From positions 1-34,102 of the forward strand of contig JADGOB010000031.1 in the NCBI GenBank assembly GCA_017883185.1: 34,102 nucleotides of DNA, in the 5' to 3' direction. The notes below the pieces were generated by a model. It made no database searches, was not told the DNA's origin, and saw only the letters and a list, made by a program, of their open reading frames with translations. The translations under genes and the position numbers were made by a program. This document shows positions 3,007 through 33,689 of this stretch, one piece after another (within the stretch, counting starts at the first letter, position 1; each line of letters begins with the position of its first letter). This stretch comes from Acidobacteriota bacterium (GTDB taxonomy: Bacteria > Acidobacteriota > Vicinamibacteria > Vicinamibacterales > Fen-181).

Positions 3007-3083
3007 CAAAAGACGGAGAACGCCAAACGGAGAACGCGGAACGCCGAACTTTGAGCGGAGAACGCTCAACGGAGACCGGACGA
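3007..3083. repeat. period-7 degenerate tandem repeat (consensus CGGAGAA / CGCNNAA)
   Basis: Eleven consecutive 7-base units. CGGAGAA occurs at 3014, 3028 and 3056, exactly 14 and 28 bases apart. Between them lie CGCCAAA, CGCGGAA, CGCCGAA and CGCTCAA, all in phase. Every unit begins with C and most end in A. The tract fills the gap between phhB, whose ATG is 14 bases away, and the stop of the gene upstream of it. Confidence 0.85.
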
Positions 3084-7242: not shown

Positions 7243-7270
7243 GCGACTTGGGGCTGGCGACCTGCGGCGC
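7243..7270. repeat. short period-7 repeat tract, CTTGCGA family
   Basis: Heptads CTTGGGG, CTGGCGA and CCTGCGG follow one another from 7247. The tract matches the one at 13051-13085, where CTTGGGG is followed by three CTTGCG(A/G) units. It lies between convergent genes; the 92-base gap shows no other structure. Confidence 0.6.
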
Positions 7271-11665: not shown

Positions 11666-13045
11666 ATGAACACGCGATACACCCCGACCATCGTCCTTGC
11701 CTTTGCGCTCGTGGTCGCCGCCGTCTTTGCCGGCCGCGCCGAGGCGCCGCACGTCTATGCCATCACCGGGGCGCGCATCGTCACCGCGGCCGGCGCGCCG
11801 ATCGAATCGGGTACGGTTCTCGTCCGCAACGGCTTCATCGAGGCGGTCGGCTCCGGCCTGTCGGCCCCGGCCGACGCGGTGGTGATCGACGGCAAAGGAC
11901 TGTCCGTCTACCCGGGCCTGATCGACATGGGCAACTCCGCCGGACTCGTGATCCCGTCCGCCGAGCCGCCCCGCGACGCCCGGACGCTCATGGAAATCGA
12001 GCGGGCCCGGCGTCAGTTTATTCTCCGTCCACAGCTCGAGGCCGCGGCGTGCCTGCGCGCCGACGCGCCCGAGCTCAGGCGCCTGGCCGCCGCGGGGATC
12101 ACCACGGTGCTCTCGGTGCCGACAGGCGACGTGATCAAGGGCCGAAGCTCGTTGATCAACGTCGTCGCGCCGGACGATGAGCCGCAGATCGGCAACCTGG
12201 CGGACGAGCGTCGAGGACAGTACGTCCTCCGCACACCGGTCGCTCTTCACGTGTCGTTCCCCACGCGCGAAGGGGACGGTGGCTACCCGGGCTCGCTGAT
12301 GGGTGTCATCGCGTTCGTGCGCCAGGCGTTCCTCGATGGCGGTCACTACCAGCTCGAGATGGCGCTCTTCGATCGCGGGAAGAAGCCGGCGACCCGCCCG
12401 GTGTACGACGCGTCGCTCGAGGCGCTCCAGCCCGCGCTCGCCGGAAAGATGCCGGTGGCGTTCCAGGCGGGGAACGCGAACGAGATTCGCCGCGCGCTCA
12501 GCCTGGCGAAGGAGTTCAAGCTCGATCCGATCATTACCGGCGCCATCGAGGCCGACCAGGCCGCAGCGGATCTGAAGGCGCAGAAGGCCCGGGTCATCTA
12601 CAGCCTCAACTTCCCGACACGCTCCCGCATGTTGGCGCCCGATGCCGACGAGCCGATTCGCGTTCTCCGCGAGCGGGCCAACGCGCCCAAAGTTCCCGCC
12701 GCGCTCGACAAGGCCGGCCTGGTCTTCGCCTTCGAGTCGGGAGGGCTGACCGATCCGAAGGACTTCGTGCGGAACGCCGCGAAGGCCGTCAAGGCCGGCT
12801 TGTCGGCCGACGCGGCGATTCGCGCCCTGACGATCAACGGGGCGACGATTGCCGGGGCCGCGGACCGGGTTGGCTCCATCGAGAAGGGCAAGATTGCGAA
12901 CCTCGTGATCACCGATGGCGACCTGTTCGACGAGAAGACGACCGTGAAGCACGTGTTCGTGGACGGCCGCCCGGTGGCCTTTGACGCGGCGCCGGCCGTC
13001 GGCGGTGCGCGGCGTGGTGGCCGCGGCGGACGAGGTGGCCAGTAA
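11666..13045 (+). CDS. secreted amidohydrolase-fold protein lacking the metal ligands
   Basis: A 459-residue protein with a signal peptide (about 5-25). The start YAITGARIVTAAGAPIESG and the tail VGSIEKGKIANLVITDGD are the two halves of the amidohydrolase beta-sandwich. The metal site is lost: the D-x-H-x-H position reads D87-M-G89-N-S91, and the usual late Asp region reads VFAFESGG. It resembles domain 2 of the preceding protein more than domain 1. The C-terminus is a Gly/Arg tail (GGARRGGRGGRGGQ). Its position 75 bases after the two-domain gene suggests one transcript and perhaps one complex with the active domain. Catalysis by the classical mechanism is not expected. Confidence 0.85.
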   Translation: MNTRYTPTIVLAFALVVAAVFAGRAEAPHVYAITGARIVTAAGAPIESGTVLVRNGFIEAVGSGLSAPADAVVIDGKGLSVYPGLIDMGNSAGLVIPSAEPPRDARTLMEIERARRQFILRPQLEAAACLRADAPELRRLAAAGITTVLSVPTGDVIKGRSSLINVVAPDDEPQIGNLADERRGQYVLRTPVALHVSFPTREGDGGYPGSLMGVIAFVRQAFLDGGHYQLEMALFDRGKKPATRPVYDASLEALQPALAGKMPVAFQAGNANEIRRALSLAKEFKLDPIITGAIEADQAAADLKAQKARVIYSLNFPTRSRMLAPDADEPIRVLRERANAPKVPAALDKAGLVFAFESGGLTDPKDFVRNAAKAVKAGLSADAAIRALTINGATIAGAADRVGSIEKGKIANLVITDGDLFDEKTTVKHVFVDGRPVAFDAAPAVGGARRGGRGGRGGQ

Positions 13046-13050
13046 TCCGG

Positions 13051-13085
13051 CTTGGGGCTTGCGACTTGCGACTTGCGGCGCAGCC
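13051..13085. repeat. period-7 tandem repeat (CTTGCGA)
   Basis: CTTGGGG, CTTGCGA, CTTGCGA, CTTGCGG and CGCAGCC are consecutive 7-base units. They start six bases after the stop of the preceding gene and run directly into the gene relic. The consensus is shared with the tract at 7243-7270. Confidence 0.75.
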
Positions 13086-13298
13086 GAAGGGAACCGTATC
13101 GCTGGCCGCCCAGGGGCTTTCCAGGCGCAGCATCACGAGCCCCGTGCAGCTCACCACCTACTACCTCGGCTATCGGGAAGTGCGCGCCGTGTACGACGAG
13201 GCGCGCAAGACGCTCGGGCCGAACGCGATCTGTTCGCGCTGAAACGACACCTTGCGGCAAACGCCATCCCGGTGCGATGCTGGTGGGGTCAGGTCTGA
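13086..13298 (+). pseudogene. relic of a DUF885-type gene, C-terminal end only, frameshifted
   Basis: One frame reads LAAQGLSRRSITSPVQLTTY, continuing YLGYREVRAVYDEARKTLG up to a TGA at 13240. From 13227 the next frame continues sensibly as DLFALKRHLAANAIPVRCWW, with a stop at 13296 inside the palindromic repeat. Joined across one frameshift (13222-13230), the two pieces resemble the last 70 residues of DUF885 proteins (SP-x-Q-L-x-T-Y-x-x-G, then FDL..FH..LLANG.IPV). No N-terminal part exists; a heptad repeat tract abuts the 5' end. The family call is from memory of the C-terminal pattern and is moderate. The frameshift reading is better supported. Confidence 0.5.
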
Positions 13299-22531: not shown

Positions 22532-22573
22532 GCCTTCCTCCGTCGCCCGCCCGCGTCCCGCGCTCCCGGGCGA

Positions 22574-22608
22574 TTAACTAACCGGTAGGTTAAACTAACT
22601 ATTTAGTT
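22574..22608 (-). promoter_or_regulatory. probable TetR operator: two adjoining palindromes
   Basis: Site 1 (22574-22593), TTAACTAACCGGTAGGTTAA, is symmetric at 16 of 20 positions about the CCGG centre. Site 2 (22593-22608) has AACTAA and TTAGTT arms that match perfectly around CTAT. They share one base and the half-site AACTAA. This is the only AT-rich stretch in the region and lies 43-77 bases before the regulator's start codon, where an autorepressor would bind over the promoter. Confidence 0.7.
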
Positions 22609-22633
22609 AACACCGATTCGGATGGCGTGTCAA

Positions 22634-22674
22634 GCGGACAGCGGACTGCGGACAGCAGGCAGCAGGCAGCAGGC
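22634..22674. repeat. period-7 tandem repeat (GCGGACA / GCAGGCA)
   Basis: Six consecutive heptads: GCGGACA, GCGGACT and GCGGACA, then GCAGGCA, GCAGGCA and GCAGGCG. The consensus shifts half way through the tract. It lies in the gap between the TetR promoter and the helicase gene. Confidence 0.8.
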
Positions 22675-22698
22675 GCTGGGCAGCCAGAGACTCCGTAG

Positions 22699-22760
22699 GG
22701 GCGACCGGCCGGTCGCCCGCCGGCAGGCGGCCTGCCCTGAGCGAGCGAAGCGAGTCGAAG
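22699..22760. repeat. mosaic of palindromes and a CCTGAGCGA..TCGAAGG element
   Basis: A perfect 20-base palindrome (22699-22718; half-site GGGCGACCGG) is followed by a GGCAGG/CCTGCC hairpin (22722-22736). Then comes CCCTGAGCGAGCGAAGCGAGTCGAAGGG in two pieces (22735-22762), a longer form of the motif at 11623-11640. The mosaic ends against the helicase stop codon at 22764 and may help terminate its transcript. Confidence 0.6.
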
Positions 22761-22763
22761 GGT

Positions 22764-25052: not shown

Positions 25053-25108
25053 CAGTTGCCGGTTGCCAGGGGCCAATGGTCAGTTGCCAATTGCCAGTGG
25101 TCAGTCAA
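25053..25108. repeat. period-7 tandem repeat (CAGTTGC / CAATTGC)
   Basis: Eight consecutive heptads, including CAGTTGC twice (25053 and 25081), CGGTTGC, CAATTGC, CAATGGT and CAGTGGT. All begin with C and nearly all fit CARTKGY. The tract starts four bases upstream of the recD2 start codon. It occupies a third of the 185-base divergent spacer; the rest has no recognised element except a -10 box. Confidence 0.82.
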
Positions 25109-27556: not shown

Positions 27557-27605
27557 CCGGCGGCCAGGCGGCAGGGGCCGCGAGCCGCCGGTCGCAGGCC
27601 GCCAG
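27557..27605. repeat. period-7 repeat (CCGCCAG type) forming a hairpin between convergent genes
   Basis: Seven heptads, including CCGGCGG, CCGCGAG, CCGCCGG and CCGCCAG. The first and fifth create a perfect stem, CCGGCGGC (27557-27564) with GCCGCCGG (27584-27591). The tract starts six bases after one stop codon and ends five bases before the other, so it fills the convergent gap and may act as a terminator. Confidence 0.6.
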
Positions 27606-29049: not shown

Positions 29050-29082
29050 CCGCCAACCGGCCCATCGCCACCGCCAGGTCCT

Positions 29083-29127
29083 CGCCTTTCCGCCCCTCGC
29101 CTTTCCGCCCCCCGCCTTCCCGCCTGC
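29083..29127. repeat. 15-base tandem repeat, three copies
   Basis: CGCCTTTCCGCCCCT at 29083 is repeated at 29098 with one change and at 29113 with several. It lies in the 157-base divergent spacer between the aldehyde dehydrogenase and AstE-like genes. Unlike the other spacer repeats, its period is 15. Confidence 0.7.
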
Positions 29128-29194: not shown

Positions 29195-30268
29195 ATGAGA
29201 ACTCAGCTCGAGCGTTCGGCACTCGTCCTGGCAGGCACGCTGTTCTGCGCGGCCAGCCTGTTCGCCCAGTCGGCCGACCCACGCCCGACCTTCACCGTGG
29301 GCACCGCGAAGGCGGCTCGCGGCCAGAAGGCCACCGGTGTCATTGCCGTCCCGGCGGGTGTCGATGCCGGCACCAACATCCCCGTGGCGGTCGTGCACGG
29401 CGCCAGGCCGGGGCGCGTCCTCGCGCTCGTCGCCGGTGCGCACGGCACCGAGTATGCGTCGATCATCGCGCTCGAGAAGATGATCGCGCTGCTCGACCCG
29501 GCGCAGATCTCGGGCACGGTGATCATCGTGCCGCTCGTGAACCTCGCGTCGTTCGAGCAGAAGATCGCCCACGTCAACCCGGTGGACGGCAAGAGCATGA
29601 ACCGGTTCTATCCGGGCAACCCGACCGGCACGCAGACCGAACGCGCGTCGTACGCGATGACGCGCGAGGTGGTCGAACCGTCCGACCACCTGATCGACCT
29701 GCACGGGGGCGACCTCGACGAGAGCCTTCGGCCCTACAGCTACTGGACCGTCACGGGCAAAGAGAAGCAGGACCAGGTGTCGCGCGAGATGGCGCTCGCC
29801 TTCGGCCTCGACACCATCATCATCTCGGCCGACCGGCCGAAGGATCCCGCCGCGTCGCGCTACCTCGAGAACACAGCCAGCACGCGCGGAAAGGCATCAC
29901 TGACGGCCGAGGCCGGCCACGCCGGAACCGTCGAGACCGACGACGTGAACGCGCTCGTCAGCGGCTGCCTGAGCGTGATGCGGTATCTCCAGATGCTGCC
30001 CGGCGTGCCATCGGTGGTCGAGCACCCCGTGTGGATCGAACGGATCGCCGGGATGACGAGCGATCAGGCGGGCATGTTCTATCCGCTGGTCAAGCGGGGC
30101 ACCTACGTGGAGAAAGGCATGCTGGTCGGCTACGTGACCGACTACGTCGGCAAGACGATCCTCGAGGCCCGCGCCCCCGAAGCGGGCGTCGTCCTCTTAC
30201 TGCGAGCCGTTCCGTCGATGACGAAGGGCGAGACGATTGCGAACATCGGGGTGGTCAAGCGCGAATAG
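29195..30268 (+). CDS. secreted succinylglutamate desuccinylase/aspartoacylase-family hydrolase
   Basis: A 357-residue protein with a signal peptide (MRTQLERSALVLAGTLFCAASLFAQ). It belongs to the AstE/AspA branch of the M14 superfamily: zinc ligands H83 and E86 in GAHGTEY and H170 in DLHGGD. MNRFYPGNPTGT carries the substrate-binding Asn-Arg pair, and catalytic Glu E239 lies in TAEAGHAG. The C-terminal 90 residues form the biotinyl/lipoyl-like beta domain of this branch (VKRGTYVEKGMLVGYVTD). Characterised relatives deacylate N-acyl amino acids; an exported member may act on N-acyl amino acids or peptides outside the cytoplasm. AAGGGAG lies eight bases before the ATG. Confidence 0.9.
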   Translation: MRTQLERSALVLAGTLFCAASLFAQSADPRPTFTVGTAKAARGQKATGVIAVPAGVDAGTNIPVAVVHGARPGRVLALVAGAHGTEYASIIALEKMIALLDPAQISGTVIIVPLVNLASFEQKIAHVNPVDGKSMNRFYPGNPTGTQTERASYAMTREVVEPSDHLIDLHGGDLDESLRPYSYWTVTGKEKQDQVSREMALAFGLDTIIISADRPKDPAASRYLENTASTRGKASLTAEAGHAGTVETDDVNALVSGCLSVMRYLQMLPGVPSVVEHPVWIERIAGMTSDQAGMFYPLVKRGTYVEKGMLVGYVTDYVGKTILEARAPEAGVVLLLRAVPSMTKGETIANIGVVKRE

Positions 30269-30323
30269 GGATCAGGGGTTGGGGATCGGGGATTGGGGGG
30301 CAGGGATCGGGGACCAGGGGCGG
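30268..30323. repeat. period-7 tandem repeat (GGGATCG)
   Basis: Eight consecutive heptads, including GGGATCA, GGGATCG (twice), GGGATTG and GGGACCA. All begin with GGG. The first unit starts at the last base of the upstream stop codon. Confidence 0.82.
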
Positions 30324-30373
30324 CCGACGCTGGAGGTCGTCCTCGGCGAGCCGGGATCCGTCCCTCCGGCGCG

Positions 30374-30429
30374 GAAGTCGGTAGTCCGCAGTCGGCAGTC
30401 GCCAATCGGCCAGCTGCCAACTGCGGGCT
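30374..30429. repeat. period-7 tandem repeat (GCAGTCG)
   Basis: Eight heptads, including GAAGTCG, GTAGTCC, GCAGTCG (twice), CCAATCG and GCCAACT. It lies 50 bases from the GGGATCG tract in the same convergent gap, with a different consensus. It ends 18 bases from the stop of the M16 gene. Confidence 0.78.
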
Positions 30430-30446
30430 CTCAACCGTGACACGCG

Positions 30447-31940
30447 TCAGTTCGTCCCCTTGATCTTCCCTTCCGTGTCGTACACCTCGACCGTCCCGAA
30501 CTTCTTCAGGACGTCTACGATCTTCTTCGCGTCGCCGACCGCCACGATCTGGATGCCGCCGGCGTCGAGGTATTTCTTCGCGTCGGCCTGCACCTGGTCC
30601 TGCGTGATCGCCGCCATCCGCTGCGGGTACTTGTCCCAGTAGTCGGCCGGGAAGTTGTAGATCCGCGACGTGATGTAGTTGCTCATGATCGACATCGGGG
30701 CCTCGAGCGACAGCGCGAAGCTGGCGACCATCGACCGCTTCTTGTCGGCGAACTCCTTGTCGGCGATGCGCTCGGTGCGCAGCCGGTTGATCTCGTTCAG
30801 GATCTCGGCAACCGCGCCCTCGGTGACGTCGCCGCGGATCTCGGTCGACGCGGACCAGTGGCCGCGATACCGCAGCGCGCTCAGGCCGCTGTACGCGCCG
30901 TAGGTCCACCCCTTCTCCTCGCGCAGGTTGAGGAACAGGCGCCCGGTCGGTCCGCCGCCGATGACCGTGTTCATCAGCGACATGGCTTCGTACTCGGCGT
31001 TCATCCGGTTGATGCCGGCGGCGCCGACGATGAGGCTCGTTTGAACCGAGTTCGCCCTGTCCACCAGGTAGATTTTCGCCGGCCCGACGGGCGGCGGATC
31101 CTGGACCGGCGGCACCGGCACCCCGGATCTCTTCCAGCCGCCGAACTTCGCCTCGACCTTCTTGCGCGCCTCGGCGACGGTGATGTCACCGACAACCGCG
31201 ATGATCGCCTCGTCCGGCACGTAATGGGCCTTGTGGAAGGCGACCAGCGCATCGCGCGTCACCCGATCGAGGCCCTCGGGGCTCAACATGACGCGGGAGG
31301 CGGGATGGTTTCCGTAGATGACCCGCGAGAACCGCTCCTGAGCGAGGAACGACGGGTTCGATCGCGCCTGCATGATGCTCGCCCTCTGCCGGGTCTTGTA
31401 GCGCGAGAGTTCCTCGTCCGGGAACACCGGGTTCAGCAGGATGTCGGCGGCGAGGTCGAGCGTCTTGTCGAAGTTGTCGGCGAGCGAATACACCGACATG
31501 CTGGCCGCCTGGCTCCCCAGGCTGGTGCCCAGGCTGACCATCGACGCCATCGTCTCCTGTTCCTGCGCGATCTGCCGGGTGTTCCGGGTCGTCGTGCCCT
31601 CCACCATCATCGCCGCCGTCACGGTGGCGATTCCTGGCAGATCGGCGGGATCGTAGTACCCGCCCGCGCCCCGGATCTGCAACTGCATCTGGACGAGCGG
31701 CGCCCGGTGGTCTTCGAACACCATCAGGTGAAGGCCGTTCGGCAGGTCGGCCTCATGCGGCCGCGGCAGGGCGATCTTCAGGAGGTCGTTCGACACCGGC
31801 GCCTTGCCCTTGATGACGACGCCCTTCGACGAGGGCGGCTGCATCTGGCCGGCCTGACCCTGCGTGGCGACCTGGGCCTGCGGCGTGGCGCACAGCAGCG
31901 CCACGACGGCGAACATCGTCAGCATGCGTCTGGTGAGCAT
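30447..31940 (-). CDS. M16 peptidase-family subunit, non-catalytic type
   Basis: A 497-residue protein with a signal peptide (about 6-23). It has the two-half M16B fold but no zinc site: where HxxEH belongs, the sequence reads GIATVTAAMMVEGTT (about 103-117). It keeps the substrate-binding Arg-Tyr pair of non-catalytic subunits, R340 and Y347 in NLREEKGWTYGAYS. The gene upstream encodes a subunit with the zinc site but without this pair, so the two probably form a heterodimer like the mitochondrial processing peptidase or the paired bacterial M16B proteins. The ATG shares one base with the partner's stop (TAATG at 31942-31938), consistent with equal expression. Confidence 0.9.
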   Translation of the reverse strand: MLTRRMLTMFAVVALLCATPQAQVATQGQAGQMQPPSSKGVVIKGKAPVSNDLLKIALPRPHEADLPNGLHLMVFEDHRAPLVQMQLQIRGAGGYYDPADLPGIATVTAAMMVEGTTTRNTRQIAQEQETMASMVSLGTSLGSQAASMSVYSLADNFDKTLDLAADILLNPVFPDEELSRYKTRQRASIMQARSNPSFLAQERFSRVIYGNHPASRVMLSPEGLDRVTRDALVAFHKAHYVPDEAIIAVVGDITVAEARKKVEAKFGGWKRSGVPVPPVQDPPPVGPAKIYLVDRANSVQTSLIVGAAGINRMNAEYEAMSLMNTVIGGGPTGRLFLNLREEKGWTYGAYSGLSALRYRGHWSASTEIRGDVTEGAVAEILNEINRLRTERIADKEFADKKRSMVASFALSLEAPMSIMSNYITSRIYNFPADYWDKYPQRMAAITQDQVQADAKKYLDAGGIQIVAVGDAKKIVDVLKKFGTVEVYDTEGKIKGTN

Positions 31941-33319
31941 TACCGGCCTCCCTTCTGCTCGGCCGTCGGGTTGGTAGGCGCTGGCGGCTTCGGATTCGTG
32001 ATGACGACCGTGCGGTTCTCGGGCGTCAGGTACTGCTTCGCGACGCGCTGGACGTCAGCGGCGGTGATGGACGACAGCCGCTGGTAGCGCGTGTTGATGA
32101 GACCGGGGTCGTTGTAGAAGACCGCGTACTGCGACAGCGAAATCGCGCGGCTCAGGCTGCTCGTCATCGTGCCGACGAAACCGCGCAGTGCCGCGTTCCT
32201 CGTCTTCTCGATCTCCCACGCCTCAATCGGCCCCCCCTTGACCTTCTCGATCTCCTCGTAGATCGCCTTCTCGAGGTCCGCGACCGACTTGCCGGGCATG
32301 ACCGTCCCGCCGACGCGGAACAGGCTCGGGCCGCGGTTCTGGCCGGCGTAGGCACTGACGCTCTGCGACAGTTGCTTCAGGCGGACGATGTTGTCGTAGA
32401 ACCGCGAACTCCGGCCGCTCGACAGCACGCTGCCGAGCATCGACAGCGCGTCACTGTCGGCCGTCAACCCCTGCGGGATGTGATAGACGACATCGAGGCG
32501 CGTGAGCTTCGCCAGCGGATCGTCGATCGTCTGCCGCTTCTCGGCCGTCTGGGCCGGCTCGGTCATGTCGACCTCGGGCGGCGGCGCCTGCTGCGGGATC
32601 GACTCGAAGTACTGGCGCACCTTCGCGAGGCAATCGGCCGTCCTCACGTCGCCGACGATCGCGAGCGCGGCGTTGTTCGGCGCGTAGTACGTCCGGAAGA
32701 ACGCGGCGACGTCATCCACGGTCGCCGCCCGCAGGTCGTCGAGCGAGCCGATCACCGAGTGTTTGTAGGCGAAGTTCGTGTAGGCGAGCTCCGGGACCAG
32801 CTCGCGCGTCCGGCCGTACGGCTGGTTGTCTACGCCCTGCTTGCGCTCCTCCGAGACGGTGCCGATCTGGTTGTCCAGGTTCGCCTTATTGATGTCGAGC
32901 GCCCGCATCCGATCGGCCTCGAGAAACAGCGCCAGGTCCAGCTGGTTGGCCGGCATCATCTCGTAGTACATCGTGCTGTCCTGGCTGGTGCCGCCGTTCA
33001 TGTCGCCGCCGTTGTTGTAGACGAGCGTGAAGTGCTCGCCGCTGCCGACGTTCTGCGACCCCTTGAACATCATGTGCTCGAACAGGTGCGCAAAGCCCGT
33101 GCGGCCCTTCCGCTCGTTGCGCGATCCGACGTTGTACACGATGCCGATGGAGAAGACAGGCGCCGTGTGATCTTCGGAGATCAGGACACGCAGCCCGTTC
33201 TTCAGGCGCGTGTCGGTGAACTGCACCTTCGGTGGGGTGGCGGCGCCGATCGTGACCCCGGCGACCAGGGCGACGATACAGCCGGTCCACAGCGCGCCGC
33301 GTGTGAGAGGCCGCTTCAT
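31940..33319 (-). CDS. M16 peptidase-family subunit, catalytic type
   Basis: A 459-residue protein with a signal peptide (about 8-27). The inverted zinc motif HLFEH gives H78, E81 (base) and H82, and the third ligand is E158, 76 residues after H82, as in pitrilysins. The C-terminal half lacks the R-x6-Y pair, reading NIVRLKQLSQSVSAY in that region, and so needs the partner encoded downstream. The pair should degrade small proteins or peptides in the periplasm or at the cell surface. The ATG at 33319 has GAGGAGG about nine bases upstream. A promoter candidate lies 255-282 bases further upstream. Confidence 0.93.
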   Translation of the reverse strand: MKRPLTRGALWTGCIVALVAGVTIGAATPPKVQFTDTRLKNGLRVLISEDHTAPVFSIGIVYNVGSRNERKGRTGFAHLFEHMMFKGSQNVGSGEHFTLVYNNGGDMNGGTSQDSTMYYEMMPANQLDLALFLEADRMRALDINKANLDNQIGTVSEERKQGVDNQPYGRTRELVPELAYTNFAYKHSVIGSLDDLRAATVDDVAAFFRTYYAPNNAALAIVGDVRTADCLAKVRQYFESIPQQAPPPEVDMTEPAQTAEKRQTIDDPLAKLTRLDVVYHIPQGLTADSDALSMLGSVLSSGRSSRFYDNIVRLKQLSQSVSAYAGQNRGPSLFRVGGTVMPGKSVADLEKAIYEEIEKVKGGPIEAWEIEKTRNAALRGFVGTMTSSLSRAISLSQYAVFYNDPGLINTRYQRLSSITAADVQRVAKQYLTPENRTVVITNPKPPAPTNPTAEQKGGR

Positions 33320-33573
33320 CGGATGTTCCCTCCTCGGGGGCTGGTTGTCAGTTCTCGTTCGACCGGAGCTTGATCACGAATGCCGACCGCCGCAGCGGCG
33401 GCAGCGGCGACTTCCCGCCGGACGCCGCCTTCCAGACGTCCTCGCCGACCGCGATTCCGGGGGCGCGACCCGCATCCTGGGACGACACGGAGCAGTCGCA
33501 ACGTCTCCCATCGCCCTCCGCTCAACTGGCGGGGAGCAGTCTCCCCATCACATACAGTCCTCGCACAGCGCTG
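33320..33573 (-). other. leader or gene-free stretch upstream of the M16 operon
   Basis: No credible gene is visible on either strand in this gap of about 370 bases (33320-33689); short open frames here are Ala/Arg-rich and GC-driven. It contains a small hairpin, GGGGA (33531-33535) with TCCCC (33542-33546). If the promoter at 33574-33601 is real, most of the stretch is an untranslated leader of about 245 bases. I recognise no riboswitch in it. Confidence 0.4.
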
Positions 33574-33601
33574 TTTATCAGCGTTGCTCCCGGCTTGTCA
33601 A
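33569..33601 (-). promoter_or_regulatory. sigma70-like promoter with overlapping inverted repeat
   Basis: On the minus strand TTGACA (33601-33596) and GATAAA (33579-33574) are 16 bases apart; the -35 is perfect. A perfect inverted repeat, CGCTG-5-CAGCG (33569-33583), covers the -10 box and could be an operator. The promoter points to the M16 pair. Confidence 0.55.
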
Positions 33602-33689
33602 GGTACGGAATGCCGAGCGGAGCCCGGAGCGACAGACCGGGCCGCGGTCGCCATCTCACCAGCCGGCGAGTACGCGCCGGCACAGGCGC

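Follow-up and report, generated by a model that had tools for sequence, protein, structure and literature searches.

The closest described counterparts of the sequences analyzed here are the heptameric repeats GGGAATC and GGGGA(C/T)T of Xanthomonas and Nostoc, which Rehm et al. (2015; PMC4692102) interpreted as G-quadruplexes. These repeats have a 7-base unit, are mainly intergenic and scarce between divergent genes, lie on the sense strand near stop codons or on the antisense strand near start codons, form paired inverted tracts in convergent orientation and vary in length between close species; they were not seen as G-rich repeat patterns in the plasmids of Nostoc 7120. In filamentous cyanobacteria the STRR, in what Rehm et al. 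relate of them, are 7-base tandem repeats with more than one word per genome, different heptamers being cited for a single Calothrix genome, and they are reported there as few words. The TAACTGA direct repeats of Beggiatoaceae, cyanobacteria and Bacteroidetes (MacGregor 2015; PMC4679880) are likewise intergenic heptamers spread across phyla. As cited by Rehm et al., a 2007 study had already proposed that the heptamer step comes from the machinery. For another system, in which the repeats are counted as SSRs, the same period preference is reported and the contact length of the polymerase has been suggested as its cause; in the accessible part of that source we found no description of degenerate multi-word tracts, hairpin layout or an 8-base class.

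The tracts of the window, by which we mean the whole 34,102-nucleotide stretch of Acidobacteriota DNA analyzed here, and those of its relatives share with the Xanthomonas and Nostoc repeats all the properties of unit, location, pairing and length variation given above. They differ in that Xanthomonas and Nostoc use one word family per genome whereas dozens of words per genome occur here, and also in the presence of an 8-base class in relatives and in the replacement of words within one spacer. A single conserved G-rich word (GGGNATC or GGGGAYT) is not found, about one third of the words having GGG or CCC. Unlike the TAACTGA repeats, which use a single word and sit just upstream of start codons, and unlike the few words reported for STRR, the tracts are strongly degenerate and drift. 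Compared with intergenic heptameric SSRs in general (Mrazek, Rehm, STRR), the unit of 7 is present, together with the 8-base class in relatives, and so are the concentration in spacers, the low number between divergent genes and the length variation between relatives. The tracts extend this published class (Mrazek 2007; Rehm 2015) as a broader, word-independent form. The multi-word form as such, which the original prediction had not recognized as described, is not new, judging by the differing heptamers cited for Calothrix (PMC4692102) and by the several words found in a Nostocaceae replicon. Our scan applied to 250 kb of Trichormus variabilis plasmid A gave 10 segments at lag 7 and 1 at lag 8; multi-word heptad tracts were seen on this plasmid (L281-L285), with one inverted pair (L283 43054-43145).

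A seven-base step in spacers

The original prediction held that eight intergenic tracts of the window are degenerate tandem repeats with a unit of exactly 7 bases and with words that differ from tract to tract. All eight lie within spacers according to gene calling, which relied on simple hexamer statistics learned from the DNA sampled here and gives approximate spacer borders. Seven of them stood when the best lag-7 segment score of each spacer was set against 500 dinucleotide-preserving shuffles (0/500 in each case), but 7243..7270 has no support as a 7-base repeat, its lag-7 score of 3 being matched by 420/500 shuffles. The tract at 3007..3083 (CGGAGAA/CGCCAAA-type, score 14, also reported by TRF) occupies the spacer between two - strand genes, and because lags 14 and 21 exceed lag 7 in strength there it appears to contain duplications of two and three units. 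The tract at 13051..13085 (CTTGCGA, score 18) begins 5 bp 3' of the stop codon of a + strand gene (11666-13045), that at 22634..22674 passes from GCGGACA to GCAGGCA (score 27), that at 25053..25108 (CAGTTGC, score 18) lies in a divergent spacer, and that at 27557..27605 (CCGCCAG, score 14) in a convergent spacer, again 5 bp 3' of a stop codon. Two more lie in the convergent spacer 30269-30446 (best lag-7 score 24, 0/500): 30268..30323 (GGGATCA/GGGATCG), which starts at the stop codon of an AstE-like gene (29195-30268, + strand), and 30374..30429 (GGCAGTC, then complement-like words such as GCCAACT), which has local hairpin arms and a lag-7 segment at 30372-30424 with a score of 24. The words thus differ among tracts, as predicted, while the step is constant, and in the tract spacers of the window no other lag from 4 to 13 exceeded 6, except for a score of 13 at lag 4 in the spacer 22532-22763. 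Upstream of the AstE-like gene, at 29080-29124, there is also a 15-base unit, CCTCGCCTTTCCGCC, repeated three times.

The same period dominates the spacers of the window's assembly, which comes from a soil-type bacterium probably belonging to a group near Luteitalea (Vicinamibacteria). We counted local self-match segments because raw pooled autocorrelation was too diluted, and the intergenic DNA within 21 stretches (312 kb) of this assembly gave 28 segments at lag 7, 20 at lag 14, 14 at lag 21 and 9 at lag 28, with 0-4 at each remaining lag from 3 to 30. Coding sequence showed multiples of 3 and background only. The predicted excess at lag 7 in spacers and its absence from genes are therefore borne out, the spectrum being flat apart from 7 and its multiples. 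Neither outcome named beforehand as refuting, a missing lag-7 excess or peaks of equal height at other lags, was observed, and the same segment test gave zero lag-7 segments in 150 kb of E. coli K-12. That the unit is exactly 7 is true of the window's own genome, where lag 8 has 0-2 segments depending on the threshold, but not of its relatives: the sister species G001 has 12 segments at lag 7 and 5 at lag 8, G009 has 74 and 28, and in two relatives the 8-base class is the larger (G030, 5 and 8; G036, 1 and 4). The values for G021 (48 and 9) come from a sample in which 8 of the 21 stretches were picked around heptad hits, which biases density upward and leaves the period unaffected; these stretches were left out of the comparison covering G001, G030, G036 and G004. 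Density is highly unequal among relatives, G004, of the same genus, having 2 tracts in 120 kb compared with 31 in 312 kb. Over 79 loci, mostly titled Acidobacteria with a few from other phyla, lag 7 gave 73 and lag 8 gave 26, with 6-9 each, that is, background, at lags 4, 5, 10, 11 and 13; lags 6 and 9 are not cleanly readable, as missed coding sequence contributes multiples of 3. The step is nearly always 7 bases, eight in some relatives, and the word changes from gap to gap.

Among the window's tracts, 30268..30323 is the sole one built on GGG runs and is, from its letters, putatively G-quadruplex-competent. It is of the GGGATCR type, its word recurs across the order, and it would suit the G-quadruplex explanation proposed for the GGGNATC repeats of Xanthomonas and Nostoc. 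GGG or CCC, however, is present in the words of only 115 of 351 tracts and GGG in the 5' arm of 6 of 48 inverted pairs, and tracts of AAGTTTG, ATTTCAG and CAGTTGC keep this step and layout. G-quadruplexes are refuted as a general cause and, although they may apply to the G-rich subset, we hold them to be a very improbable explanation of the whole.

Turnover of words and units between species

Between the window and G001, whose genes are ~97% identical, substitutions amount to 3.2% in coding sequence, 11.7% in tracts and 10.0% in other spacers, so that by substitution the tracts are not exceptional among spacers. Whole heptads have been gained or lost between these species, which the original prediction had suggested checking: the spacer of the 25053..25108 tract (window 25070) is shorter in G001 by exactly 21 bp, or three heptads, and that at L050:13294 by 35 bp, two clean orthologous unit indels being recovered in all. 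At L047:11354 the spacers are equally long (0 bp) and their heptads carry many substitutions; the 30268..30323 tract is contracted in G001, and the spacer of the 27557..27605 tract is longer there by ~170 bp. Other tracts have been rapidly replaced. G001 carries wholly different words at L042:5161 and L046:6268, and the spacer orthologous to the 22634 tract (G001:C213; L051/L052) holds a 20-base-unit array (GGTCGGAACTGACGATGAAG-like) instead of heptads. Length shifts at replaced or lost tracts are generally not multiples of 7 (+139, -171, -31; L046 +7). A lag-20 peak was seen in G001 only, and the 15-base repeat at 29080-29124 is shorter in that species by exactly 30 bp, that is, two units. 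Two M16 peptidase genes (30447-33319) are absent from G001 (window 30270-33684 compared with G001:C213), and since the junction of this gap lies inside the heptad spacer 30268-30429, the breakpoint in gene content coincides with a tract; a second breakpoint is found near 13125, ~40 bp off the 13051 tract.

Over larger distances, the AstE-like gene has a tract at its 3' flank that is of period 7 in the window, G001, L078, L083 and L109 and of period 8 in L102, L103, L107 and L117, with words that are all different, the pair formed by the window and G001 excepted. Within tracts, words drift while the step is kept (CCGATCC..CCGACTC..CCGGTAC; CGTTTAA..CGTTTGA..CGCCGAA), and identity falls with unit distance, from 0.85 through 0.79, 0.74 and 0.70 to 0.67 in G009; the decay is the same in G021 and G006 and less regular in G000. 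Such a decay points to stepwise local duplication followed by point mutation, a fixed functional array predicting a flat curve, and it favours the slippage that had been proposed at the outset. An array of sites for a protein with 7-base spacing, the other proposal made then, would be in keeping with the strong period and with the modest enrichment of TCA/TGA in the words, but the decay of identity along the tract, the complete word turnover in orthologous spacers of species that are ~97% identical and the occurrence of 8-base tracts at the same positions make us regard it as very improbable.

Layout of tracts within spacers

Neighboring lag-7 tracts of one spacer are often reverse complements of each other, 20 of 41 matching at 6-7 of 7 positions compared with ~6% of distant pairs, and among lag-8 neighbors 11 of 13 match at >=6/8. 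Folding yields long hairpins whose arms are repeat arrays (for example, L129 17045-17160, L087 505-690 and L107 past 10979). Within 60 bp of stop codons 13.9% of the sequence belongs to tracts, as opposed to 4.9% beside starts, and they are present in 35.5% of convergent spacers as opposed to 16% of divergent ones. These figures fit selected 3'-end elements, namely RNA or DNA hairpins acting as terminators, transcript stabilizers or insulators for which the repeat would be mere material, as do the stronger inverted repeats of tract spacers relative to other spacers (12/48 vs 3/113 in G009; 9/40 vs 4/113 in G021) and the presence of a tract, with differing words and periods, at the AstE-like 3' flank of several distant species. 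Intrinsic terminators are nevertheless rejected, as a T-run follows the 3' arm in only 3 of 96 flanks. Moreover, many tracts are single and unpaired, pairing is weaker in the window's genome (3 inverted pairs; a strong inverted repeat in 0 of 19 tract spacers), and a hairpin needs no 7-base step. We consider such elements an unlikely explanation, albeit one deserving more weight than any of the other alternatives to slippage.

The tracts also show a polarity centered on the spacer. Read on the + strand, tracts are G-rich when they lie in the left half of a spacer and C-rich when they lie in the right half. The odds ratio is 3.6 (p = 8e-8) for all tracts, 3.7 (p = 3e-6) when each spacer contributes one tract and 2.9 (p = 0.002) for spacers that have a single tract, with the same direction in all four gene orientations and significance not in all of them; there is no effect in G009 and none in non-tract spacers. 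In inverted pairs the 5' arm has G>C in 30 and G<C in 15, in line with the G-rich-strand-first order of the Rehm-type pairs, although the three lag-7 pairs of G009 are reversed. Rehm et al. (PMC4692102) described for a single word in Xanthomonas a strand rule and inverted pairs in convergent orientation, both of which this polarity generalizes.

In 4 of 5 sets TCA/TGA were enriched and CAC/GTG depleted in tract words relative to other spacer DNA. A role in providing stop codons in all frames (7 and 8 both being coprime to 3) was rejected because the TGA enrichment is greater on the antisense strand; the fraction of sense-strand frames stopped rises only from 0.67 to 0.78.

Gene associations and the origin of the step

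Four gene families were tried against the tracts, and tract counts across genomes are not phylogenetically independent. Within the order (40 genomes), those with Ku are richer in tracts (16/18 vs 4/18 when the cutoff is 1 per 20 kb, p = 1.3e-4; when the model includes genome size, p = 0.0045). Here and in the comparison outside the order, most genomes were sampled at 10-40 kb only. This association, together with the word-independent step, is what would be expected if staggered breaks left 5' overhangs of 7-8 nt that were filled in before Ku/LigD joined the ends, so that 7-8 bp would be duplicated whatever the word. The Ku signal is unreplicated, however: outside the order Ku is present in 42 of 50 genomes, drawn from the survey loci, and inspection of the lists gave no visible link to tracts, while L087, L103, L142, G007 and G026 are tract-rich yet have no Ku match. 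In addition, for long pure 8-base arrays to form, unit length would have to be remembered from one event to the next, and independent breaks have no such memory; we regard this explanation as quite improbable. Loops of 7-8 nt escape mismatch repair. If such long loops do so here, MutS is expected everywhere, and it was found in all 40 genomes searched. Neither MutS loss nor SbcD nor the Y1 transposase tracked with tracts, and no Y1 transposase, as REP/BIME with RAYT would call for, was detected in the tract-bearing G000, G001 and G005. The idea that the repeats are driven by defective mismatch repair or by a transposase of the REP type, for which we found nothing in favor, is refuted on these grounds and is the least credible of the alternatives.

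Taking the period, decay and turnover together, we think it probable that the tracts arose through repeated local slippage with a step of 7, less often 8, set by the machinery and tolerated in spacers; the fixed step is most likely a slip of DNA copying rather than a code read by a protein. Misaligned strands would duplicate a unit whose length depends on the machinery of replication or repair, not on the sequence, and the independence of the words places the step in that machinery. Units would be gained and lost in spacers, chiefly a short way past stop codons, where a change of +7 or -7 would be harmless; within a gene such a change would cause a frameshift. Point mutations would then make neighboring units drift, giving several words per tract with the step unchanged, and in a large subset an inverted partner may have arisen through copying or fold-back of the tract, producing a hairpin with repeat-array arms. 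Decay and whole-unit indels fit slippage, and the bias toward 3' ends could come either from purifying selection on promoters or from a function of the hairpins that is under selection. Simple slippage, however, does not predict full word replacement (L042, L046 and window 22634) or the indels of -171, +139 and -31 at replaced tracts, it gives no reason for 7 over 5, 6 or 9, and spacer-centered G/C polarity has no place in it. Polarity and word replacement are the strongest reasons for a further search. It is improbable that intergenic DNA is continually rewritten by a dedicated enzymatic process which copies exactly 7 (or 8) bases in tandem, whatever their sequence, and keeps a single strand polarity with respect to the spacer center, this reading falling behind the 3'-end elements and ahead of the staggered breaks.

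The over-representation of heptamers in bacteria has been without an accepted cause since 2007. What is new here is that step and layout persist as words differ between tracts and within them, which separates the step from the word; as the step outlasts changes of word, causes based on G-quadruplexes or on words read by a protein cannot be general. The cause of the step length becomes testable, and the mixture of 7 and 8, varying by lineage, offers a handle on what sets the step.
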